DNA of 38,374 nt. Source: Caldimicrobium sp. (GTDB lineage: Bacteria > Desulfobacterota > Thermodesulfobacteria > Thermodesulfobacteriales > Thermodesulfobacteriaceae). A program made the translations under genes and the position numbers. Shown one piece after another: positions 434-38,374 of the stretch (positions within the stretch are counted from its first letter, which is position 1; each line of letters begins with the position of its first letter). A model generated the notes under the pieces. That model was not told the DNA's origin. It was given only the letters and a program-made list of their open reading frames with translations, and ran no database searches. Location: NCBI GenBank assembly GCA_009903935.1, contig WYEG01000040.1:1-38374 (forward strand), in the 5' to 3' direction.

Positions 434-3030
434 GCCCTACCTCCTTCTATAACCTCGAACAATTTTTCAAGGGGAAAGGGCTTATAAATAACCGCATCAT
501 ACCGGACATGCCTTGCCCGTTCAGAAACCTCCTTAGGCGTGTATCCAGTCATCAAAACTATCTTTACGCCCCCCGAAAGTAGCCCCTCTTGTCTTAGCCT
601 TTCAATGAGATAAACTCCACCCTTACCCTGCGGGACTGTGAGGTCAAGAAGGAGAACCTCAAAGGGTCTTCCCTCCTCATAAGCAGATTTATAAGCTTGA
701 AAGGCAGAATCCCCTTCCTCGAAGGTTTCAACTTCATAACCCCTTTCCCTTAAGACCTCAGCTAAAAGCTCCCTCACCTCTTCCTCGTCCTCAAGGATGA
801 GGACCCGCTTTGCCGCGTGCTTCTTTTCAACCTTAGTTTCCTTATGTTCCTCGATAATAGCAGTGATGACCTTTGGTTTTCTTGGGAGCTTGATGGTAAA
901 GGTTGTTCCTTTACCGACTTGGCTATCAATTGAGATTTGTCCTCCGTAGAGGTCTACGACCCTTTTTACAACTGTTAGCCCAAGCCCCGTGCCGTGAGGC
1001 TTCGTGGTAAAGCCAGGGTCGAATATCTTTGATAATAGCTCAGCAGGTATCCCAGGTCCGTTGTCCTCAAACTTAAGGACTACATTGTCATCCTCAGCAA
1101 AGGCAGAAACCTTGAGGACTCCTTTTCCTCCCATAGCATCCTTGGCGTTTAGCGCAAGGTTTTGAAGGATAGACAAAAGATGGGCATGGTCCATAAGGAG
1201 CTTTAGCTCCTCTTCTACAGAAAATTCAGCCTTGACCTCAGACCCCTGAAGATAGAAGGAAACCCATTCCGGAATGAACTTGTCAAGCTTTATCTCTTCA
1301 AACTTTCTTAAATCCCTTCCTGAAAGGATAAAAAGCTCTAAAACCCTTTGAGAAACCTTATCAAAGGCCTCTTTTACCTTCTTTACATGCTTTGCCTTAT
1401 CATGGTCTAAGGCATCCTTTAGCTTTAGCTCAAGGAGCTCAAGATGCCCTTTGATTACCATGAGGAGGTTGTTTAGGTCATGGGCAAGCCCTCCTGCAAT
1501 CTGTAGGACAGCCGATGTCTTCTCAGCCTTTCTTGCCTCTTCTTCAAGGATCAACCGCTCAGTAATATCAAAGATCAAGCCAAGAAAACATCTTTTACCA
1601 AAAAAGGATATCTCATCAAAAAGGATTTCAATCGGGACCTCCGAGCCATCCTTCCTTCTAAGCCTTGTCTGAACATGCTTTTTAGCAAGGGCTGAAGGTT
1701 GACCTTTTAGAATTTTAGAAAAGGCTACCCTTGCCCTCTCCCGTAGCTCAGGGGTTGGCGTCAAAAGGTCATGCAATCTTTCATTTAGGAGCTCGCTTTT
1801 TTCGTATCCTGTAAGCTTGGCTAAGCTTGAATTGACAAATACTATTTTTCGCCCCTCATCAAGAAGGGCTAACCCAACCGGCAAAAGCTCAACCAAGGTC
1901 TCAAAGAACTTTTGGGCTTCCTCCTTGACCTTGAGATATTCGGTAATGTCCTCTAAAACGGTGTAGATTAGGATGTCTCCATCTTGCTTGTAGACCTTTG
2001 AGGAAAGAAGGGCATAGAAGGGCTTTCCATTTAAGGTTTTAAGCTCTGCTTCATAAGCCCTTACCTCACCTTTTGTTAAGACTTCGGAGATGAAGGCTTG
2101 TCTCTCCTCAGGGTTTACCCAAAGGTTTTTAGCATTGAAATATTTTCCTTCAAAGTCTTCAGGGACCTCAAAAAGCGCCTTTGCCTGCCTGTTTGCTTTG
2201 ACGACCGCTCCATCAGGCTTTGTTATAACTATAGCTACGGGGTTTTCCTCAAAGAGCCTAACAATCTCGGTCACATCATCGTAGAAGGTTAATTTTAAGG
2301 TCTTGCCAGACCTTGTGCGGAATACCTGAAAATACCTTTGAAAATACTTGGAAAGCCTGGGAGAAAAGAGAATGCTATCCTCTTGCCCTTGCCCATGCAA
2401 TAAAGGACAATCCGGGCAGGGGTCAGTCCTCCCAAAAAGGATGTAGTGGCATTTAGGACACTCCTTTTCAATCAGGGGCTTTAAATTCTTACTTGCATAA
2501 AGGATGTTAAAGTTTTCATCATTTATGAAAAAGAACCCAGGATAAAGGTCAACCGTTGCCTTCAAAAGCTCTCCAATCTCCTTCTCTTCAGTCCTATCCT
2601 CTATAAAGTGAAGATAAGCAAAATGCTCGCCCCTTTCATCATACAAAGGAATTAGCGTAACCAAAAGATGCTTCTTTAGTTTTGGCTCAAAAAAATCTTT
2701 ATGATAAAACCCTTTGAGAGCAGTTTTCGCTTCCTTAAGCGCTGGAGAAGGCTCCTTAGGGCAGCAGGGTGGTTTTTCTTCGCTGGCTTCGCCTGGGCAT
2801 CTTGTAAAAGGGCAGGTGTAAGCATCCCCCTGCAAAGGGCAAAAATCCGGAAGCTTACTTAAGCCATGGACAAATTCGTAGCACTTTTTCCCTTCTACAT
2901 CTTCACGAGAGATGCCAAAAAATTGACAGAAGGCTTGATTTACCTTAAGTATGATAAGGTCTTTACTTAAAAGAAAGGCGGGAAGCTCTGAACTTTCTAA
3001 GATTTTATCTATATCAAGATGATAGGTCAT
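430..3030 (-). CDS. Hybrid sensor histidine kinase with four PAS-like domains and C-terminal receiver
   Basis: An 866-residue cytoplasmic kinase with no membrane segment. Rough order: PAS 1 (1-145), PAS 2 (150-255), PAS 3 (255-370), PAS 4 (370-495), dimerisation/His box with H517 in LAHDLNN, ATPase (about 610-720; N box NLALNAKDAM, DNGPGIP, GTGLGL) and a receiver domain (about 742-862; phospho-acceptor D796 in LLLDLTVP, T in LMTGY, K850). PAS 1 holds seven Cys between residues 35 and 90. PAS 2 holds a CxxC-x10-CxxC set (C191, C194, C205, C208), suggesting a bound metal, Fe-S cluster or thiol switch; this is inference. The gene overlaps both neighbours by four bases (DUF2892 upstream, cutA downstream). 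No separate response regulator is nearby, so the output partner is unknown. Confidence 0.93.
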   Translation of the reverse strand: MTYHLDIDKILESSELPAFLLSKDLIILKVNQAFCQFFGISREDVEGKKCYEFVHGLSKLPDFCPLQGDAYTCPFTRCPGEASEEKPPCCPKEPSPALKEAKTALKGFYHKDFFEPKLKKHLLVTLIPLYDERGEHFAYLHFIEDRTEEKEIGELLKATVDLYPGFFFINDENFNILYASKNLKPLIEKECPKCHYILFGRTDPCPDCPLLHGQGQEDSILFSPRLSKYFQRYFQVFRTRSGKTLKLTFYDDVTEIVRLFEENPVAIVITKPDGAVVKANRQAKALFEVPEDFEGKYFNAKNLWVNPEERQAFISEVLTKGEVRAYEAELKTLNGKPFYALLSSKVYKQDGDILIYTVLEDITEYLKVKEEAQKFFETLVELLPVGLALLDEGRKIVFVNSSLAKLTGYEKSELLNERLHDLLTPTPELRERARVAFSKILKGQPSALAKKHVQTRLRRKDGSEVPIEILFDEISFFGKRCFLGLIFDITERLILEEEARKAEKTSAVLQIAGGLAHDLNNLLMVIKGHLELLELKLKDALDHDKAKHVKKVKEAFDKVSQRVLELFILSGRDLRKFEEIKLDKFIPEWVSFYLQGSEVKAEFSVEEELKLLMDHAHLLSILQNLALNAKDAMGGKGVLKVSAFAEDDNVVLKFEDNGPGIPAELLSKIFDPGFTTKPHGTGLGLTVVKRVVDLYGGQISIDSQVGKGTTFTIKLPRKPKVITAIIEEHKETKVEKKHAAKRVLILEDEEEVRELLAEVLRERGYEVETFEEGDSAFQAYKSAYEEGRPFEVLLLDLTVPQGKGGVYLIERLRQEGLLSGGVKIVLMTGYTPKEVSERARHVRYDAVIYKPFPLEKLFEVIEGGRA

Positions 3031-3248
3031 TTATATTCGTTGCATTCCTTAATACCGAGCTTTCTGTAGACAACCATCACAGGGCACCAATTCGTAAAGG
3101 CAGATTGTATTTGATTGATAGCCATAAAGATCAGAAAGGCTTTCCAAAACCAATGCACATCTTGAGCGGGGATTATGCCAACTAAAGTTACCACAAGGAG
3201 CACCACCCCTGCCGTAAGCCTAAGAACTCTATCCATGGTCATAGCCAT
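3027..3248 (-). CDS. DUF2892 (YgaP-like) small inner-membrane protein
   Basis: A 73-residue protein with two hydrophobic stretches (about 9-26 and 35-48) followed by NWCPVM and a short basic tail. This is the DUF2892 pattern found alone or as the membrane part of YgaP-type rhodaneses. The conserved Cys after the second helix is characteristic. A strong ribosome site (AGGAGGG) sits nine bases before the ATG at 3248, which supports this start. It leads the operon with the sensor kinase and cutA; the kinase start overlaps its stop. A role in sulfur or membrane redox chemistry is suggested by the family only. Confidence 0.85.
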   Translation of the reverse strand: MAMTMDRVLRLTAGVVLLVVTLVGIIPAQDVHWFWKAFLIFMAINQIQSAFTNWCPVMVVYRKLGIKECNEYK

Positions 3249-3289
3249 AGTATCTTCCCTCCTTTTAGGTGTTGAGAAATTTAATAATA

Positions 3290-3318
3290 ATTTTAAACTT
3301 TATCCGAAGACTTAGCAA
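3290..3318 (-). promoter_or_regulatory. Probable sigma-70 promoter for DUF2892-kinase-cutA
   Basis: On the minus strand a -35-like TTGCTA (3313-3318) and a -10 TAAAAT (3290-3295) are separated by 17 bases. The site lies about 40-70 bases upstream of the first gene of the operon. Confidence 0.5.
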
Positions 3319-3360
3319 GTCGGGACAAATTTTTTATATTACCTCTGAGGTTGTTTCAAT

Positions 3361-3640
3361 AAAGCTCTCTGCCCTGTCTTGACGAGCGGAAAAGAGGCAT
3401 CCCTCTATTTCCAAGGAGCGAAAAAAGAGGAGACCCCTCGGGCCGAGCCCTCGGGGCGACAGCCTCCCACCGCGTCTTCTCGAGGCGCGCAAGCGCCGAG
3501 GGACCCCTCGCTTCCGCTCGGGGCGAAAAAAGGGAGCGATAGCGAGGCATCCCTCGCTATCGCTCGGGACGGCGTCCCTCATCACTTCGTTCGGGACGGC
3601 GTCTCACAGGGAGACCCTCCCTTACATCTTTTTGTTACCT
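3361..3640. repeat. GC-rich dispersed palindromic repeat, copy 2 (composite)
   Basis: A mosaic of the dispersed element occupying the divergent intergenic space. It contains GAGGCATCCCTC twice, TTCGTTCGGGACGGCGTC, GCGCCGAGGGACCCCTCG and CTCGGGGCGACA. Several blocks are inverted copies of one another, so long hairpins are possible. Open frames on both strands through here are low-complexity products of the repeat and are not genes. It sits between the two divergent promoters. Confidence 0.8.
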
Positions 3641-3641
3641 C

Positions 3642-3669
3642 TTGACAAATTATGAATAACGAATACAAT
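3642..3669 (+). promoter_or_regulatory. Strong sigma-70 promoter for cbiMNQO
   Basis: TTGACA at 3642-3647 and TACAAT at 3664-3669 are separated by 16 bases. Transcription would begin near 3676, leaving about 34 leader bases before the ATG at 3710. This decides between the two possible cbiM starts. The leader is too short for a cobalamin riboswitch and I see none. Confidence 0.65.
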
Positions 3670-3709
3670 TTTTCAAATGAAAATACTACGCTTAGGGAGG
3701 GTTAAAGCC

Positions 3710-4420
3710 ATGTTAACGGTTTTTCAGCTCCTTTTTATTTTATTTTTGCTCCCAAAGAATGCCTTGGCAATGCACATCGCTGAAGGGGTTATTCCCTTTA
3801 GCCAAGCCTTGCTTTGGTTCATTGCTTTGTTTATAGTTTTAATCCCCTCTTTCCTAAAACTAAGTAGAACGCTCAAAGAGCATCCTGAGAAGAAGGCGGT
3901 GTTTGCCTTTGCTACCGCCCTTGTGTTTCTTCTTTCCATGCTTCCCATACCTGTCCCCTTTGCGGGCACCTGTTCCCATCCTGTGGGGGTTAGCCTTGTG
4001 GTGATGCTCCTTGGGTTGGCCGGAGGGATAGTTTCTGGGTTTATCGTCCTTATCCTTCAAGCTTTTCTTCTTGCCCATGGGGGAGTTTCAAGCCTTGGGG
4101 CAAACGCCTTTTCCATGGCTGTTGTTGGAAGCCTTTTTGCCTACCTCGCTTTATCCCTCTTAAAAAGAACAAGCCTTCCTGTTTTCTTCGTTGGTTTTCT
4201 CATGGGGCTTCTTTCTGATTGGGCAACCTATCTTACAACGGCTCTCCAGCTCTCCCTTGCCTTGACCGGGCAAGAACCTTTTACAGCTATCTTCATCAAA
4301 GCCATCCTTGCCTTTCTTCCAACCCAACTTCCCATCGGTATCCTTGAGGGATTGCTTGCCGGTTCCATTGCCTCAGCCTTAGCCAAAAGAAGAAAAGACC
4401 TTCTTATCTGGGAGGTGTAA
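3710..4420 (+). CDS. cbiM: CbiM, substrate-specific membrane component of cobalt (or nickel) ECF transporter
   Basis: An integral membrane S-component that binds the metal ion. The start is set at ATG 3710, because GGGAGG lies nine bases upstream and the promoter would start RNA near 3676; the ATG at 3677 lacks these. From 3710 the protein is 236 residues: a signal peptide ending NALA, then MHIAEG. Cleavage after ALA would expose Met-His at the new N-terminus, which in this family helps coordinate the metal. The GTCSHPVGV motif and about six further hydrophobic segments fit CbiM. It is first of four co-directional genes (M, N, Q, O). Cobalt versus nickel cannot be settled from sequence; the CbiN-like partner favours cobalt. 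Confidence 0.93.
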   Translation: MLTVFQLLFILFLLPKNALAMHIAEGVIPFSQALLWFIALFIVLIPSFLKLSRTLKEHPEKKAVFAFATALVFLLSMLPIPVPFAGTCSHPVGVSLVVMLLGLAGGIVSGFIVLILQAFLLAHGGVSSLGANAFSMAVVGSLFAYLALSLLKRTSLPVFFVGFLMGLLSDWATYLTTALQLSLALTGQEPFTAIFIKAILAFLPTQLPIGILEGLLAGSIASALAKRRKDLLIWEV

Positions 4421-4421
4421 G

Positions 4422-4745
4422 ATGAAAAGACTACTCAAGATTTTAGGCTTGCTTCTCGTGCTATTTTCAGTCTTTATTCTAAACCAGCCTTTTGCTTTGG
4501 CTGAAGAGGGACCTAAAGAAGAAAAATGGAAAGGCTTTGATGAGGCGGTGCTTGAGAAGCTTGCTAAAGAGCATGGAAGGGAGCCAAAGGAGAGCTTCAT
4601 AACCCTTGAGGGAGACCTTGAGCTTTTTATGTTCAGCCTCATGTCCGGTATTTCTGGTTTTGTGGTAGGATATTACTTTAGAAAGATATTCGTTGAGGGT
4701 AGCCATGCATTTTCTCATAGAAAGAAAGGTCAACCTTCCTCTTGA
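4422..4745 (+). CDS. cbiN: CbiN-like small membrane component of the Co/Ni transporter
   Basis: A 107-residue protein with an N-terminal hydrophobic segment (about 5-25), a charged extracytoplasmic linker, and a C-terminal membrane helix. The segment LEGDLELFMFSLMSGISGF followed by VVGYYF resembles the conserved end of CbiN (acidic residue, LLFALQA, then G..GY). In the family, CbiN assists CbiM in metal loading. The start is one base after the cbiM stop with GGAGGT just upstream. The central loop is shorter and less Pro/Trp-rich than in enterobacterial CbiN, so this is a divergent member. Its position between cbiM and cbiQ supports the call. Confidence 0.8.
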   Translation: MKRLLKILGLLLVLFSVFILNQPFALAEEGPKEEKWKGFDEAVLEKLAKEHGREPKESFITLEGDLELFMFSLMSGISGFVVGYYFRKIFVEGSHAFSHRKKGQPSS

Positions 4746-5412
4746 AGGAAGGCTAAAGCTAATCTACCTTTTGTTTGTCCTAAGCCTGGTTCTTATTTCT
4801 GCTTCAATCCCTTTTCATGCTATAGTCCTTTCCCTCCATTTAACACTTCTTTTGCTCTTTCGCCTACCTAAAAAAGAACTATTAAAAGCCTACTCCGAGC
4901 CTTTGTTCGTAGCTTTTATGCTTCTTCTGATAAAAAGCGTAAGCCTTTCCCCCTTTGCCTTTTACCCGGAGCGCTTTGCTGAAAACTTAAGTTTAGCCAC
5001 AAGGGTTCTTTCAGCCTTCACCCTCTTTCTCTTGATTTTCTATTCCTTTTCTTTTACCGAACTTTTGCAAACCCTGCACAGCTTTCGCTTCCCCTCTTTA
5101 CTCGTTGAGTTGATGCTTCTTACCCATAGGTTTATCCTCTTACTCTACGAAGAATTTCTTACTATCTACTACGCTCAAAGAAATCGCCTTGGCTTCTGTG
5201 GAATAAGGACCTATGCTCGCTCGGTAAAGGCGGTAACTCAGGCCCTCTTTTTCAAGACCTTAGAACACGGTGAGAACGCCATCATGAGCATGAGACAAAG
5301 GGGTTACGATTTCAGAAATCTTTTTGTGAAAAAGACAAAGGTCCGTCCTCTGGAAATTGTCTACCTTTCTGGTATGATGGTAGTATGGCTTACCATTTTT
5401 CTCATCCTTTAA
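4705..5412 (+). CDS. cbiQ: CbiQ, ECF transporter transmembrane (T) component
   Basis: A 235-residue membrane protein that couples ATP hydrolysis by CbiO to the CbiM substrate unit. I place the start at ATG 4705, with GAGGGT five bases upstream; a TTG at 4693 in the same frame lacks a ribosome site. The gene begins inside cbiN, implying translational coupling. Hydrophobic segments lie around residues 20-60, 70-85, 100-125 and at the C-terminus. The coupling-helix motif MSMRQRGYD near residue 195 matches the Ala/Ser-Arg-Gly signature of T components. Confidence 0.92.
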   Translation: MHFLIERKVNLPLEGRLKLIYLLFVLSLVLISASIPFHAIVLSLHLTLLLLFRLPKKELLKAYSEPLFVAFMLLLIKSVSLSPFAFYPERFAENLSLATRVLSAFTLFLLIFYSFSFTELLQTLHSFRFPSLLVELMLLTHRFILLLYEEFLTIYYAQRNRLGFCGIRTYARSVKAVTQALFFKTLEHGENAIMSMRQRGYDFRNLFVKKTKVRPLEIVYLSGMMVVWLTIFLIL

Positions 5413-6251
5413 GGTTGGTTGTAAAGCTAAGAAGTTTTAGCTATTCTGGAGATGCTCTTCTACTTCAGGATGTAGAGTTTGAGGTCAAGGCTGGGGAGTG
5501 TTTGGTCATCCTTGGGGCAAGCGGGGCAGGAAAGACCACTCTTTTAAAGCTTATAGATGGGCTTTTGAAGGATTATGAAGGTGAGGTCCTTCTTGACGGT
5601 CAAGACATAAGAAAGCTAAAGCCTAAGGAAATTTACAGCAAGATGGGGCTTCTTTTTCAAAACCCCGATGAACAGCTCTTTGCTCCTACCGTGTTTGAGG
5701 ATGTAGCCTTTGGTCCAAGGAACATGGGGTTTGATGAGGAGGAAGTGATAAGAAGGGTGCTTCAAGCTTTAGACCTTGTTGAGTTATCAGGCTTTGAGGG
5801 TCGGTCTATATCTCAGCTCTCCTTTGGGCAAAAAAAGAGGGTTGCCCTTGCCGGACTTCTCGCCATGGGGCATGAGGTGCTTCTCCTTGATGAACCAACC
5901 CTTGGTCTTGACCCAATTAGGGAAAGAAGGTTTTTAAAGCTTTTAAAGAGGCTTCAAGAAGAAAGAAGCATAACTTTAGTCATCGCAACCCATCAAGTAG
6001 ATATCGTTCCTGAAATCGCAGACAGGGTGTTAATCCTTTCTGAGGGCAAGGTCTTTTTCCTTGGTCCTCCGGAGGAAATTTTCGGAACACCCCAACCTCT
6101 TGAAAAAGTTTACTTAAGGCTCCCTTTGGTTAGCGAAACCTTTTTGCCTCTTTGGGAAAGGGACGGGCTTAAGAAACTTCCTTTAACGGTTGAAGAGGGA
6201 AGGGAGATTTTAAAAAGGCTTCTTTCTAATAATTCTTTGCCTAATTCTTAG
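5385..6251 (+). CDS. cbiO: CbiO, ECF transporter ATPase
   Basis: A 288-residue ABC ATPase energising the cobalt/nickel transporter. Visible motifs: Walker A GASGAGKTT (44-52), Q loop FQNPDEQLF (Q92; NPDEQLF is typical of ECF ATPases), signature LSFGQKKR (145-152), Walker B VLLLDEPT (E170) and switch His in ATHQ (H203). The ATG at 5385 lies within cbiQ and has only a weak ribosome site. A TTG at 5415 would give the more usual N-terminus, so the start is uncertain. Its last bases overlap the convergent PIN-TRAM gene. A C-terminal extension of about 50 residues follows the ATPase core. Confidence 0.93.
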   Translation: MAYHFSHPLRLVVKLRSFSYSGDALLLQDVEFEVKAGECLVILGASGAGKTTLLKLIDGLLKDYEGEVLLDGQDIRKLKPKEIYSKMGLLFQNPDEQLFAPTVFEDVAFGPRNMGFDEEEVIRRVLQALDLVELSGFEGRSISQLSFGQKKRVALAGLLAMGHEVLLLDEPTLGLDPIRERRFLKLLKRLQEERSITLVIATHQVDIVPEIADRVLILSEGKVFFLGPPEEIFGTPQPLEKVYLRLPLVSETFLPLWERDGLKKLPLTVEEGREILKRLLSNNSLPNS

Positions 6252-8174: not shown

Positions 8175-8693
8175 CTAAACTTGGGTCATAAGGAGGTTTA
8201 GGTCAAGGGGTCTTTGGGCAAGCTCATTGTCAAGGTAAAAAAGGGCTTGAGGGTCGTTTTTTATAAGTCTAAGCTTATTAAGTATGGCTTTAAAGGATGC
8301 TTCTTCTTCTACCTGCTCATCTACAAACCATTGCAAGAAGTTCTCGGTAGCGTAGTCTTCAAACTTTCTTGCTAAGGTCATAAGCTTGTTTATCCTTGAG
8401 GTAACTTCCTGCTCATGCTTATAAGCGTAGGCAAACACATCCTCAGGACTTTGCCATTCCTTTGGAGGGGCAGGGATCTCCTGAAGCACAACCCTTCCAT
8501 CCCTCTCAAAGATAAACTTATAAAACTTCATGGCATGCATGAACTCTTCGGCAGTTTGAGCCTTCATCCAATGGGCAAAGCCTGGCAAGCCTAAATCTTC
8601 AAAGTAAGCAGCCATGGCTAAATAAAGATAACCAGAGTAGACCTCCCACTTTAACTGCTCATTCAAAGCAGACTCCATCTCAGGATGTAGCAT
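8175..8693 (-). CDS. ftnA: Ferritin (non-heme, FtnA type)
   Basis: A 172-residue four-helix iron storage protein of the usual bacterial ferritin length. Ferroxidase ligands are visible: E17 (LKWEVYSGYLYLAMA), E50 and H53 (AEEFMHAMKFY), a Glu in YKHEQEV near 94 and a Gln in FVDEQVEEE near 127. A clear ribosome site GGAGGT precedes the ATG by five bases. It stands alone, between two copies of the GC-rich repeat. It stores iron delivered by systems such as FeoB, encoded elsewhere in the window, and protects against oxygen. Confidence 0.95.
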   Translation of the reverse strand: MLHPEMESALNEQLKWEVYSGYLYLAMAAYFEDLGLPGFAHWMKAQTAEEFMHAMKFYKFIFERDGRVVLQEIPAPPKEWQSPEDVFAYAYKHEQEVTSRINKLMTLARKFEDYATENFLQWFVDEQVEEEASFKAILNKLRLIKNDPQALFYLDNELAQRPLDLNLLMTQV

Positions 8694-8756
8694 GGCTAAC
8701 CTCCATTTTAAATTTTTATTTTTTTAGAAAAAAAATAAATCAAAATCCAAAAACTT

Positions 8757-8970
8757 CAACTGGTTCTGGTGCTGTTCAAAAAGGTCTCCCCCCACTTTGT
8801 CCTGCCGAGCGTAAGCCGTGCATCCCTCACTTCGTTCGGGACGGCGTCCCCAGGGAGCCCCCTCGCTTGCGCTCAGGGCGACAAAAAAGGGGGGCTCGGG
8901 GCGACAGCAGAAGGGCTTGCACAAAAACATTTTTAATACAGCCTCCAACTGGTTCTTGACGCTGTTTAAA
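8757..8970. repeat. GC-rich repeat copy 4 bounded by imperfect direct repeats
   Basis: The core (about 8786-8908) contains CCTCACTTCGTTCGGGACGG, CCTCGCTTGCGCTCAGGGCG and GGCTCGGGGCGACA. It is bracketed by two similar segments of 24-25 bases, at 8757-8780 and 8946-8970, both starting CAACTGGTTCT and ending GCTGTT(C/T)AAA. They differ at four or so positions. This may be the original extent of a small mobile or amplifying element. No gene lies within. Confidence 0.6.
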
Positions 8971-8974
8971 TGGA

Positions 8975-9040
8975 GGGGCAACCGGCGATTTCCTATTAAG
9001 TAAAGCCAATCGTAGGGATGATCGCTGGTCGCCAAATATT
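8975..9040. repeat. Imperfect inverted repeat (GTAGGG...GGTCGCC type)
   Basis: GGCAACCGGCGAT near 8978-8990 pairs with ATCGCTGGTCGCC near 9020-9032 at 11 of 13 positions, and a T-rich run follows. It could act as a hairpin past the porin stop codon, or be a worn member of the widespread GTAGGGGCGACC repeat type. Confidence 0.4.
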
Positions 9041-33113: not shown

Positions 33114-35261
33114 TTGAAAGGGCAAAAAACTTTATCACTCTTTCTTGTTTGCTTCCTTGTTCTTTTATTAAAGATAAATTCTTTATACGCCCTGCCTGCA
33201 TCTTCAAAGATTGAGGTTTCTGCCGATAGGTTTGAAATCCTTGGGCGGGGCGAAAGGCTCCTTGCGGAAGGTAATGTTTTCATAGAAAGTAAAGATTTTT
33301 TTATCCTTGCTGACCAAGCAATCTTTGACCCAAGGCGGGAAATCTTAGTTTTAAAAAGATTCCAAATCCAGGATCTAACGGAAAATGCAAGCTTAAGGGG
33401 GGATTCGGCAACCGTTGACCTTAGGTTTAATCAGTTGGAGAGCGATAGCGTCCTCCTCTTTCTTAAAAAACAAAACATCCGCATAAAAGCCTATGGTTTT
33501 GAGAAGAACGCCTTAAACGAATACAAAGCAGAAAGGGCTATCATTACAAGCTGCGAGCTTGACTGTGAAAAGGAGGAGTTTCCGCCCTGGAGCATAGAGG
33601 TTAAAAACTTTATTTTTGGACCCGACGAGCTTTCTAAATCTGATGCTTCAAAGTTTAGAGCAGGCAAGTTCCCTCTTCTCTATCTTCCTAAGTCTATCCT
33701 CATGCCAAAGGTGAGCCTACCCGTATTGCAGGAGAGAAAGCAAGGGTTCCTTCTTCCGAACATCGCCCAGGGTAATAGACTTGGCTTTGGTTTCCAACTC
33801 CCCTACTTTCTACCCCTTACCGACCAGATAGACTTCACCATATCTCCCCTTTATCTTACGAAACGAGGGCTTCTTTTTGACTTGGAAAACAGAATAACCC
33901 TTACCGAAAACATTAAATCGGTCTTCAACTATCGATACATTGAGGATAGGGAAAAAGGGGAGGGGAACCGCTGGTGGTTAACAGGTAAGGTTGATGTTGG
34001 TTTAAGGGAAAATCTTGATGTGCATCTTGATGTTGACCTTACCTCTGATAAGGTGTTTCTTGATGAATTCAATGTTGGTGAAGGCGGGTTTGACCGAGTA
34101 AAATCTCGTTATCTTGAGACCTTTAGGCGGGATGTTGACGATAAAACTCAGGATTACCGCGCATCAAGCCTTTGGGGGCAGTGGTTTAGAGGTAGCCTCT
34201 ACAGCAGGATTTCAAGCACCTACTACGATTATCATGGTCCTAACGATGAGAAAACAATCCTTCAGCCCTTAGCCAATTTCCATCTAAACATCCTTCCCTT
34301 TGAGTGGCATGCCCTTTTGCCATCCTTTGTCTTTGATTATTACTATTTTTATAGAGAGAAGGACTACTACGGGCATAGGGTTTCGCCAAAGCTTGAATTG
34401 AACTATCCGTTTAAATTTTCCTATCTGCGAAATCTTTTTACCCTTTCCTACACCCAAAACCTTTATTATCTTTCCGAGAGGGGAAATTTTTCGCAGGACA
34501 ATCTCTCAAGCGGTTTTGTTTCTGCCGAGGTTTCTACTTATACCTTGCTTAAAAGGTCTTATTTCTTGCCTTTTGGCGGACCAAGAGATCTTAGCTTTGA
34601 GCATGTGCTTAAGCCCTTTGCCATTCTCCATTATCAGTCAAAACCCTCAAGAAAAGATGTCCCAATATTCGTAGATGAGGATTTGCTAAAGGATAAGACC
34701 TTGGTTTTGGAGTATGGGCTGTGGCAGTTCTTCAACCTTCCTACAAGCTACAATTTTATTGTTGTCAAAGCCTATCAAATCTACGACCTCGAGAAGGCAA
34801 AAAAGAGCGCAACCTCTTTACCCCCTGAGGAGCGAGCCTTCTCCGACCTCTATCTTCAAGTCCTACTTCAAGGGAGGAGAATTAGCGCAAGGTATGACGC
34901 AACCTACAACTTTTACGGTTACGGCTTTAAAAAGCATTATTTTACCATCACGACAAACAAGGTCCTAATCGATAGGCTAAACCTTCAGTATCAAGAGGAT
35001 TCAGCTTGGAAGACAAGGCAAGCTATTTTTGAGGCTTATCATACCTTTTGGCAAAAGTTAGCCCTTCATTTTTACGCCACAAGAAACCTAAAGCTTAACC
35101 AGACCTCCGAGCTTAAGTTTGAGCTTGCTTATCTGCATGATTGCTATCTCCTTGGGTTTGGTTTTACTTCAACGCCAAAGGATACAAGGTTTCATTTTAT
35201 GGTAAACCTTGTAGGGCTTGGCGGCTTAGGAACAAGCTCTTTAGCTCAAAATTATCCTTGA
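33114..35261 (+). CDS. lptD: LptD, LPS-assembly outer-membrane protein
   Basis: A 715-residue outer-membrane protein that inserts LPS into the outer leaflet. The TTG at 33114 is the only suitable start before the signal peptide (LFLVCFLVLLLKINSLYA). Residues about 32-140 form the OstA/LptA-like jellyroll (IEVSADRFEILGRGERLLAE, GNVFIESKD, LRGDSATVDL). A CELDCEKE pair lies near 148, and a large beta-barrel runs from about 200 (YLPKSILMPKVSLPVLQERK, QGFLLPNIAQGNRLGF). It ends convergent with feoB, overlapping by 21 bases. Together with kdsA/C and lptC it shows a true LPS outer membrane. Confidence 0.93.
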   Translation: MKGQKTLSLFLVCFLVLLLKINSLYALPASSKIEVSADRFEILGRGERLLAEGNVFIESKDFFILADQAIFDPRREILVLKRFQIQDLTENASLRGDSATVDLRFNQLESDSVLLFLKKQNIRIKAYGFEKNALNEYKAERAIITSCELDCEKEEFPPWSIEVKNFIFGPDELSKSDASKFRAGKFPLLYLPKSILMPKVSLPVLQERKQGFLLPNIAQGNRLGFGFQLPYFLPLTDQIDFTISPLYLTKRGLLFDLENRITLTENIKSVFNYRYIEDREKGEGNRWWLTGKVDVGLRENLDVHLDVDLTSDKVFLDEFNVGEGGFDRVKSRYLETFRRDVDDKTQDYRASSLWGQWFRGSLYSRISSTYYDYHGPNDEKTILQPLANFHLNILPFEWHALLPSFVFDYYYFYREKDYYGHRVSPKLELNYPFKFSYLRNLFTLSYTQNLYYLSERGNFSQDNLSSGFVSAEVSTYTLLKRSYFLPFGGPRDLSFEHVLKPFAILHYQSKPSRKDVPIFVDEDLLKDKTLVLEYGLWQFFNLPTSYNFIVVKAYQIYDLEKAKKSATSLPPEERAFSDLYLQVLLQGRRISARYDATYNFYGYGFKKHYFTITTNKVLIDRLNLQYQEDSAWKTRQAIFEAYHTFWQKLALHFYATRNLKLNQTSELKFELAYLHDCYLLGFGFTSTPKDTRFHFMVNLVGLGGLGTSSLAQNYP

Positions 35262-37205
35262 AAATTGATAAGTAAGGGTAGAAAGTATGTAGGCTAAAAA
35301 TAAGCTGTAGAAAAAGTAAAGAAGAGCGTAGCTCTTTCCTGCTTCTTTCCAAATAGTTGCAAGAGTTGCCATGCAAGACATGTATACAAGGATGAAAACC
35401 AAGAAAGACAGCGCTTGAGGAGGTTGAAATAGTCCCTTTATCTTTTCTTTAATAGTTTGCTTTTCTTCGTCTTCTTTATCCTCGTTAGAAAAAACAGTAG
35501 GATAGGGGTTAATAAGGGAGATTAAGCCTTTTTTAAAAGCTTCTACAAATCTCCTCCCCTGTTCTTGGGCTTTGCTCTTCCAGTCAAAGTGTTCCACCTT
35601 TTCTTCTTTTTCTTCCTCGACGATGACGCCAAGGGTGGAAATGATGGCTTCTCTCGCTAAAAAGGCTGGGATCAAGCTTGTTCCTATCCTCCAGTCATCC
35701 AAGCCAAGCGGTGCAAAGATGTAGGAGACGGCTTTTCCCACCCTTGCAGCGTAGGTATTTTCTAAATTTTTTTCTCCTAAGGGTAGGTTTAAAAGCAGCC
35801 ATATCACCACTGATATGGCAAAAATTATCGTTCCAGCTCTGAAAAGAAAGCTTTTAAGATGGAGCCAAACGATGCGAAATAGCATTTTTGCTGAGGGCAA
35901 ACGATAGGGTGGTAGGTCCATCACAAAATGAGAAAGTTCTTTTTTGTATAAAGTTTTTTGTAGGATTAAGCCGGTCAAAACCGCCACAAAAATTCCCAAC
36001 ATGTAGAGACAAAAGACGATTAAAACAGGGTTTTTAAAGAAGAGGCTTGCAAAAAAAGAGAATACAACGAGCCTTGCACTGCAAGACATAAAGGGTATCA
36101 TAGCCATCACGATCAATCTATCCTTAGGGTCAGGAAGGACCCTTAAGGCAAGGATGGCAGGAACATTGCAGCCAAACCCAAGGAGTAAAGGAATAACGCT
36201 ATGTCCGTGAAGCCCAATTCTATGAGTAAACCTATCCATAAGGAAGGCAACGCGGGGGAGATAGCCAGAGGTCTCTAAAAGAGTGATAAAAAGAAACATC
36301 AAAAAGACTGTCGGAACAAAGGTAAGAACTGTTCCAACTCCACCGATTACCGCGCTCCCAAAAAACTGCACCAAAAAGTCCGAAAGGCCGGAACGGCTCA
36401 AAAGGGAAGATAGCCCCTTACCCAAAAAATCCGAAAAAAAGCTGTCAAGAAAATCAACAAAAGGAGAAGAAAGGTCAAACACCGTCTTAAAAACAAGATA
36501 GTAAATCAAAAAAAGGAAGAAGATGCCAAAAACTGGGTGCAACAGAAGATTATCAAGAAAATCCGAAATGTTTCTTTGGGTAATAAGCCTTTTACGTAAG
36601 ACCTCTTGAGCTAAACCTTGAGCTAAGCTTGCATAATCAAAGTTTAAAGGTTCAGCACCGCTTACGATCTGAACAGGAATTCTTGAGAGGGTAGGGACTA
36701 AGTTTTTCTCATGGGCGATAAGGATAGCCTCAAGGAGCTCATCTGTTCCTTTTCCTGTTCTTCCTATGGTTTTGACAACCGGTACTTTTAAGATTTCAGA
36801 AAGTCTTGCCTCATCTATCTTTATGCCTAAAGCCTCGGCTTCATCAGCCATGTTGAGGGCAATTACCATCGGTTTTTTTAGCTGAGCAAGCTGAAGAGTA
36901 AGATAAAGGTCCCTTTCAAGCTTTGGGCTTTCAACCACATTAAGGATGAGGTCGTAGTCCCCTTGTTTTAGATAATCTACCGCCACCTTTTCATCTAAAG
37001 ATGTGTAAAATTCTAAAGTGTAGATGCCTGGGATGTCCACAAACTCAATTTCATAGCCTTGAAAAATGGTCCGCCCTTTCTTTTTTTCAACCGTAACCCC
37101 TGGGAAATTACCAATAGTTAAAGCTGTCCCGCAAAGATGATTGAGAAGACTTGTTTTGCCAACATTTGGGTTGCCTGCTAAGACGACGCGAATTTTTTCC
37201 ATCAT
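35241..37205 (-). CDS. feoB: FeoB, ferrous iron transporter
   Basis: A 654-residue membrane protein. The N-terminal G domain has G1 GNPNVGKTSL (11-20), FPGVTVEKKKGR, G3 DIPGIY, and G4 NMADEA. Gate regions and about eight or nine helices follow (GIFFLFLIYYLVFKTVFDLS, LGFGCNVPAILALR with the conserved GCNVPA, SCSARLVVFSF). Length is slightly shorter than E. coli FeoB (773). It follows the fur-feoA fusion by 14 bases in one operon, so iron uptake and its regulator are transcribed together. There is no separate feoA; the FeoA domain is in the neighbour. Confidence 0.96.
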   Translation of the reverse strand: MMEKIRVVLAGNPNVGKTSLLNHLCGTALTIGNFPGVTVEKKKGRTIFQGYEIEFVDIPGIYTLEFYTSLDEKVAVDYLKQGDYDLILNVVESPKLERDLYLTLQLAQLKKPMVIALNMADEAEALGIKIDEARLSEILKVPVVKTIGRTGKGTDELLEAILIAHEKNLVPTLSRIPVQIVSGAEPLNFDYASLAQGLAQEVLRKRLITQRNISDFLDNLLLHPVFGIFFLFLIYYLVFKTVFDLSSPFVDFLDSFFSDFLGKGLSSLLSRSGLSDFLVQFFGSAVIGGVGTVLTFVPTVFLMFLFITLLETSGYLPRVAFLMDRFTHRIGLHGHSVIPLLLGFGCNVPAILALRVLPDPKDRLIVMAMIPFMSCSARLVVFSFFASLFFKNPVLIVFCLYMLGIFVAVLTGLILQKTLYKKELSHFVMDLPPYRLPSAKMLFRIVWLHLKSFLFRAGTIIFAISVVIWLLLNLPLGEKNLENTYAARVGKAVSYIFAPLGLDDWRIGTSLIPAFLAREAIISTLGVIVEEEKEEKVEHFDWKSKAQEQGRRFVEAFKKGLISLINPYPTVFSNEDKEDEEKQTIKEKIKGLFQPPQALSFLVFILVYMSCMATLATIWKEAGKSYALLYFFYSLFLAYILSTLTYQFSRIILS

Positions 37206-37219
37206 TCCAATGGATATTT

Positions 37220-38032
37220 TTAAAGTTTAGATAAAAGCTTAATCAAAAAATTCCGGGGACAACCCTTTTCATCCTTTATTTGGCAAGCATCATCCTTATC
37301 TTTTAAAGGACAGGGTTCTTGCAGAGCTTCCTCTCCGTTGATAAGTTCGCAAGGTAAATCCTCGGTAACCTTTTCCGTCCTTACGATTTTAACCGGTATC
37401 TTGCTTGCAAGCTCCTTGTTTATGACGATTCGGGAGTTTCCAATTTCAACGAGTATTGTTCGACCACAGACCTGAAGCACCTTTAAGAGCTCCCCTTTTC
37501 TTAAACCCATGGCTATGAGCTTTTTACACATCACATCCGTGGGTAAATCAAGGACTTCAACAACCTTACCCTTTTCTACCATATCGAGGGTGGTGGTTTC
37601 GGCCTTTTGACAAGTCTCGCATATACCAAAGGATTCCAAGTGATGGGTAAGTAGCTTAAATCCCTTTTCAGCCTCCTTTGTTCGAATTAGGCGTTCAAGC
37701 TCAGGGTCGATGATTTCCTCAACTTTTCCACATCGCAAACAAAGGAAATGAAGATGTGGAGCTTTGTTTATCATTACTTCATAATGCGAGTGCCCATCTT
37801 GCCGATACACTTCTTGAATGTATCCAGCTTCGATGAATAAGGGAATGCTTCTATAGATGGAGGGCTTAGAAATTTTTTTGTTCTTTTGTCTTAGCCGTTG
37901 ATATAACTCCTCTACATCAAAGTGCCCATGAATGCTAAGAATTTCCTCAAGTATTTCTTCTCTTTCTGAGGTATATTTTAGCCCTTTTTTCCGAATAAAC
38001 TCCCTGAAGTTTTTTAAAATTTCTTCATGCAT
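37220..38032 (-). CDS. Fur-family repressor fused to a FeoA domain, with Cys-rich tail
   Basis: A 270-residue protein from ATG 38032 (a TTG at 38047 adds five). Numbered from the TTG, the Fur part (7-148) has winged-helix KKGLKYTSEREEILEEILS, then SKPSIYRSIPLF, metal residues H40, H42, H86, H88 (GHSHYE), H98, H100 (HLHFLC), and two zinc CxxC pairs (C103/C106, C143/C146). A FeoA-type SH3-like domain (about 153-225; KGKVVEVLDLPTDVMCKKLI, AMGLRKGELLKVL, GNSRIVINKELA) follows directly. The last 50 residues carry C233, C246, C255 and C263. It precedes feoB and probably represses this operon when iron is plentiful; the FeoA half may contact FeoB or modulate sensing. Confidence 0.92.
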   Translation of the reverse strand: MHEEILKNFREFIRKKGLKYTSEREEILEEILSIHGHFDVEELYQRLRQKNKKISKPSIYRSIPLFIEAGYIQEVYRQDGHSHYEVMINKAPHLHFLCLRCGKVEEIIDPELERLIRTKEAEKGFKLLTHHLESFGICETCQKAETTTLDMVEKGKVVEVLDLPTDVMCKKLIAMGLRKGELLKVLQVCGRTILVEIGNSRIVINKELASKIPVKIVRTEKVTEDLPCELINGEEALQEPCPLKDKDDACQIKDEKGCPRNFLIKLLSKL

Positions 38033-38055
38033 TATAAATTTTTGCAACTGATATT

Positions 38056-38111
38056 CAATTAAATAAATTTTCTATAACAAATTAAATTAATTCTCTATAA
38101 GAATTTGTCAA
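38056..38111 (-). promoter_or_regulatory. fur-feoA-feoB promoter with two tandem operator-like repeats
   Basis: On the minus strand TTGACA (38106-38111) is followed by two abutting direct repeats: copy 1 at 38078-38100 (23 bases) and copy 2 at 38056-38077 (22 bases). Both begin TTATAGA and end ATTTAATT(T)G, with one extra T in copy 1 and two substitutions. They cover the expected -10 and start region, the classic position for repressor sites. The sequence does not look like a canonical Fur box. Confidence 0.55.
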
Positions 38112-38134: not shown

Positions 38135-38374
38135 AAGTCCCCTACTCCGTCATGGCGAGCGTCCTGCTCCGTCGTGCCGAGCGTTAGCGAGGCATCCCTC
38201 ACTTCGTTCGGGATGACGCTTCATGAGGAGACCCCTCGCTTGCGCTCGGGGCGACAAAAAAGTAGGCTCGAGGCGAGAGCCCTTTTCTGTCGTTTCGAGC
38301 GAAGCGAGAAATCTCCACACCCTGTCATGCCCCTCCCCCTGTAGTGCCAAGAGTAGCGAGGCATCCCTCACTTC
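38135..38374. repeat. GC-rich dispersed palindromic repeat, copy 5 (runs off the window)
   Basis: Contains GTCATGGCGAGCG, CGTGCCGAGCGTTAGCGAGG then CATCCCTCACTTCGTTCGGG, CCTCGCTTGCGCTCGGGGCG, TTTCGAGCGAAGCGAGAAAT, and again GAGTAGCGAGGCATCCCTCA at the end. At least two successive units are present, the last cut off by the window edge. It lies upstream of the fur-feoA promoter. Open frames on both strands here are artefacts. Confidence 0.8.

Follow-up and report, generated by a model that had tools for sequence, protein, structure and literature searches.

Metal-responsive repressors of the DtxR type carry a C-terminal FeoA-like SH3 domain. In the FeoA–FeoB fusions of Bacteroides fragilis and Porphyromonas gingivalis, FeoA is covalently joined to its operon partner, and the FeoA–FeoB interaction in the B. 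fragilis FeoAB fusion is nucleotide-dependent (PMC8980893). For classical Fur, the residues that read DNA have been described in the Magnetospirillum protein as Lys15, Tyr56, and Arg57: binding is abolished in the R57A mutant, gives a very weak signal in Y56A, and is weakened in K15A (PMC4506495). The locus described here joins a Fur to a FeoA. It lies in the window (the whole 38,374-nucleotide stretch of Caldimicrobium sp. DNA that was analyzed), and it resembles the classical fur genes that stand beside feoA in the same bacterial family in its recognition and metal residues, a FeoA with a Cys tail, the gene order, and a Fur-box-like site in the promoter. In these relatives there are two genes, whereas the window encodes one protein. 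As in the FeoA–FeoB fusions, FeoA is covalently joined to an operon partner; there, however, it sits on the transporter, and here on the repressor.

The fusion gene occupies positions 37220–38032 of the minus strand, where one unbroken frame of 270 amino acids runs from an ATG at 38032 to a stop codon ending at 37220. The earlier note had placed a full Fur and a FeoA domain in this frame, upstream of feoB, and its coordinates are right. Pfam FUR (PF01475) matches residues 15–133 (102.9 bits against a curated cut-off of 23.1, E = 1.6e-29), and Pfam FeoA (PF04023) matches residues 148–215 (44.5 bits against 23, E = 1.6e-11), so that the profile search bears out the FeoA assignment of the earlier note. 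The feoB gene (35241–37205, minus strand), which encodes a ferrous iron transporter of 654 amino acids (TIGR00437, 1.6e-168; Pfam FeoB_N, Gate, and FeoB_C), starts 14 nt downstream on the same strand, with no other feoA between. The Fur part (residues 1–143, 37604–38032) comprises a winged helix and a dimerization/metal domain and is followed by a short junction (residues 144–147, 37592–37603). The FeoA SH3-like domain (residues 148–216, 37385–37591) is thus the second domain of a 270-residue protein rather than the small stand-alone protein that FeoA otherwise is. It shares the MGLRKG and CGR stretches and a Cys tail with the FeoA proteins that stand alone in the family. This tail, which ends the gene together with the stop codon (37220–37384), does contain the four Cys residues that had been noticed from the sequence (228, 241, 250, and 258); it is not special to the fusion, as the separate FeoA proteins of relatives have Cys tails too, and it is mostly without a confident fold.

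In the AlphaFold model, both domains are of high confidence (mean pLDDT of 86.6 for the whole protein), and most of residues 238–270 fall below 50. The pTM is low (0.57), as would be expected for two domains without a fixed relative placement. Fur proteins rank first in a Foldseek comparison with solved structures. The winged helix and dimerization domain that would mark a DtxR-type regulator are absent from the protein in a Pfam scan; an MntR model matches its FeoA part only (E = 0.0047). The fusion and the DtxR-type regulators have in common that a metal-responsive repressor carries a FeoA-like domain at its end, but DtxR belongs to another repressor superfamily, and the FeoA domain of the window protein derives from the feoA gene of its own family. 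No match spanning 80% of the fusion protein was found among plasmid records, and a scan of the protein against genome_contigs gave no match.

The Fur part has an intact set of DNA-contact residues in the alignment (K19, T21, R24, Y60, and R61). K19, Y60, and R61 align with K15, Y56, and R57 of Magnetospirillum Fur, which places the DNA-recognition pair Tyr60–Arg61 at 37850–37855 of the minus strand (role: PMC4506495). The Cys4 structural site is complete, with both CxxC pairs (C98/C101 and C138/C141) that the earlier note had reported, as is the regulatory His/Glu site (H37, E85, H93, H95, and E106). At the third metal site, E113 and H130 are present and the other two positions are occupied by P92 and L94, as they mostly are in relatives. 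These sites were assigned by mapping to the metal ligands of H. pylori Fur. With these residues in place, the Fur part is most likely a working Fe2+-dependent iron repressor. Within this 97% complete genome, it is probably also the cell's sole classical Fur, since the only other match to the fusion protein is a Fur-family protein of 135 amino acids that is 26% identical.

The junction was compared with those of 16 relatives, where the feoA start is usually preceded by a purine-rich ribosome site within the end of fur or in the gap after it. None of these signals survives in the window: fur has no stop, feoA has neither its ribosome site nor its ATG, and, as we read the alignment, a Thr codon stands where the ancestral FeoA began with Met. 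Because several independent differences are involved, a single frameshift or wrong base would not produce the fusion. The frameshift or assembly error that had been named as a possible source of the frame therefore very probably does not account for it: the fusion is genuine, a repressor gene merged in frame with the neighboring feoA. An internal restart yielding a separate FeoA was considered and dropped, because no ribosome site could be seen shortly before Met151.

Elsewhere in the family, fur and feoA are encoded separately: they abut, overlap, or have only a few bases between them, and in several relatives both lie in one frame that is interrupted by a single stop. The feoB gene follows at 8 of the 16 loci, in the sequence compared. 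At six of the other loci, extended by at least 5 kb of flank, the stretch contains no FeoB match, and the genome has its feoB elsewhere; the idea that feoB always follows the pair in this family was thus ruled out, and fur and feoA stay paired even without it. The window Fur domain is 51–65% identical to the family's separate Fur proteins and 22–31% identical to a second, phylum-wide family of fused proteins. In the Fur tree, it falls among the family Fur proteins (with low support there) and outside the fused family, which is held together with a support of 0.999. The FeoA domain clusters with the separate FeoA proteins of the family (support of 0.973) in a FeoA tree of uncertain root. Because both domains group with the family's separate genes, the fusion is read as having arisen in place, independently of the phylum-wide family, and the trees made here support at least two joinings of Fur to FeoA. 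Fusion of the window type was seen once in 41 genomes of the order, and among the long frames around other Fur matches of the phylum (L093–L105), none carries FeoA in the Fur frame. The FeoA search profile was built from a five-sequence alignment, as a ten-sequence alignment was too varied to scan with, and it found seven loci, all in Thermodesulfobacteriota judging by their record titles. In other genera of the order (L030–L035), a FeoA of a different type, and then a FeoB of 673–679 amino acids, come after fur in the feo operon.

A profile search of genomes sampled from the phylum carried the survey of such fusions beyond the single case of the earlier note. It returned full-length Fur–FeoA frames well apart from that of the window. 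With a profile made from these, such a protein was detected in 68 of 395 genomes and 49 of 243 genera, and Pfam detects both domains in all 23 members scanned. FeoB is present in the fetched stretch at 14 of 20 loci (L066–L085), commonly after a separate FeoA, and a classical fur adjoins at 7 of these 20; at five loci (L025–L029), no FeoB lies within the fetched stretch. In two members, L082 (3623–4651) and L085 (3528–4529), Fur, FeoA, and a second FeoA share one frame next to feoB. The order of Fur then FeoA and the frequent placement in feo operons are as in the window. In contrast to the window protein, these fusions form a separate clade, are often encoded next to a classical fur and a stand-alone feoA, and have lost the recognition residues: neither the Tyr nor the Arg is found at its position in any of 25 members. 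Glu is the commonest residue at the Arg position (12/25), Asp or Glu occupies the Lys position in 15/25, and Arg stands at the Tyr position in 7. All 25 retain the Cys4 and regulatory sites, 21 have a complete third metal site, and structure prediction still gives a Fur fold. Since the metal ligands are kept and the recognition Tyr and Arg are lost, the comparison suggests an iron sensor of Fur descent that no longer recognizes the classical Fur box; its target may be FeoB, Fur, or other DNA. This family may be a more interesting object than the window fusion. Neither kind of Fur–FeoA fusion was found described in a search of the open literature, which was limited to open papers.

Upstream of the fusion gene, a degenerate Fur-box-like site, TTGAATATCAGTTGCAA, is found at 38042–38058 of the minus strand (position −26), with three mismatches to WTGAAAATNATTTTCAW. 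The box scored is the delta-proteobacterial consensus (PMC545781). Alone, this site is weak, with about 0.06 expected by chance in that stretch, and across the window six such sites are found against 3.5 expected. Many relatives have a better site in this place: 12 of 19 upstream regions hold one with up to three mismatches, 11 of them with only one or two at −25 to −37. The upstream repeats of the earlier note correspond to two AT-rich direct repeats of 23 nt, 87% identical, that follow a TTGACA (38057–38102, minus strand). Relatives show no evident counterpart upstream, and the repeats may be operators or a local duplication. No clear ribosome site was seen before the fusion ATG. By eye, the stretches at 8724–9035 and 38140–38374, the latter reaching the contig end, hold similar-looking GGGATGACG-type repeats.

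The same genome has a second feo locus, L044 (G000:C48:3500-12500), at 1477–5729 of the minus strand. It encodes a 129-residue FeoA-like protein, a 213-residue FeoA–GGDEF fusion (FeoA, 2.3e-11; GGDEF, 2.1e-30), an HD-domain protein, a 76-residue FeoA, and a 717-residue FeoB. Predicted Fur regulons of Desulfovibrio also list GGDEF and HD-domain genes (PMC545781). In six family members (L107–L112), the gene after fur–feoA encodes a protein with a like start in all six; in the two that were Pfam-scanned (L107 and L110), it combines PilZ with a phosphoribosyltransferase and is followed by a gene for a solute-binding protein. The FeoA–GGDEF fusion and the PilZ gene beside fur–feoA are two hints of a link between cyclic-di-GMP and iron. 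Elsewhere in the window (8175–8693), a putative ferritin-like protein of 172 amino acids was noted by reading of the translation.

The reading judged somewhat probable is that two neighbors fused in frame and that both domains kept their ancestral jobs. The Fur part would act as an Fe2+-dependent repressor whose target is probably its own operon, and the FeoA part would go on serving the FeoB made from the next gene. The tether would mainly set repressor and FeoA at a one-to-one ratio, and some cross-talk with FeoB may occur besides. Several observations count against this proposal. With a single such fusion among the 41 genomes of the order, it is not possible to show that the fused state is conserved, and the second feo locus has its own FeoA, so the fused FeoA may be dispensable. 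In addition, only two of the four ligands are present at the third metal site, although relatives mostly lack the others too; the match to the Fur box upstream is degenerate, and a clear ribosome site is missing.

A broader reading, which is entertained tentatively, is that the Fur fold has repeatedly been recruited to FeoB via FeoA. The phylum-wide family would then no longer read DNA and would either sense Fe2+ on FeoB or pair with classical Fur and inactivate it, and the window protein would be a separate case that both represses DNA and docks on FeoB. A feedback device, as proposed in the earlier note, appears rather unlikely. Here, the FeoA part would dock on membrane FeoB, and the nucleotide or transport state of FeoB would hold the repressor off DNA, such that transporter activity sets transcription. 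By analogy, the nucleotide-dependent interaction in the natural B. fragilis fusion (PMC8980893) would fit such a device, as would the repeated joining of Fur to FeoA with one family widely kept, the pairing of fur and feoA without an adjacent feoB in six family members, which hints at a Fur–FeoA link, and a model of two confident domains with a low pTM. However, the junction is short, operon neighbors can fuse without any new regulation, and if both domains keep their old jobs after an in-frame fusion, feedback is not needed. It is less probable still that, as in DtxR, the repressor now uses its FeoA part as a built-in SH3-like module that has ceased to serve FeoB. DtxR-type regulators do carry such a domain, a separate FeoA is available at the other feo locus, and fur–feoA of relatives can sit away from feoB; against this, feoB comes directly after the fusion gene and no second feoA intervenes, and the domain retains the conserved stretches and Cys tail of stand-alone FeoA. 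Finally, a sequencing or assembly artefact is highly improbable: about 340 nt separate the gene from the contig end and the continuous frame is known from one genome of the genus, but the missing stop, ribosome site, and FeoA start codon are independent differences from relatives.

Two questions are open in the field: by what means FeoA influences FeoB, and whether iron import is sensed at the importer itself. The repressor–FeoA fusion and the Fur–FeoA family without DNA-reading residues are ready-made proteins for testing whether Fe2+ sensing is coupled to the importer, and iron sensing and import may have been physically tied together more than once.
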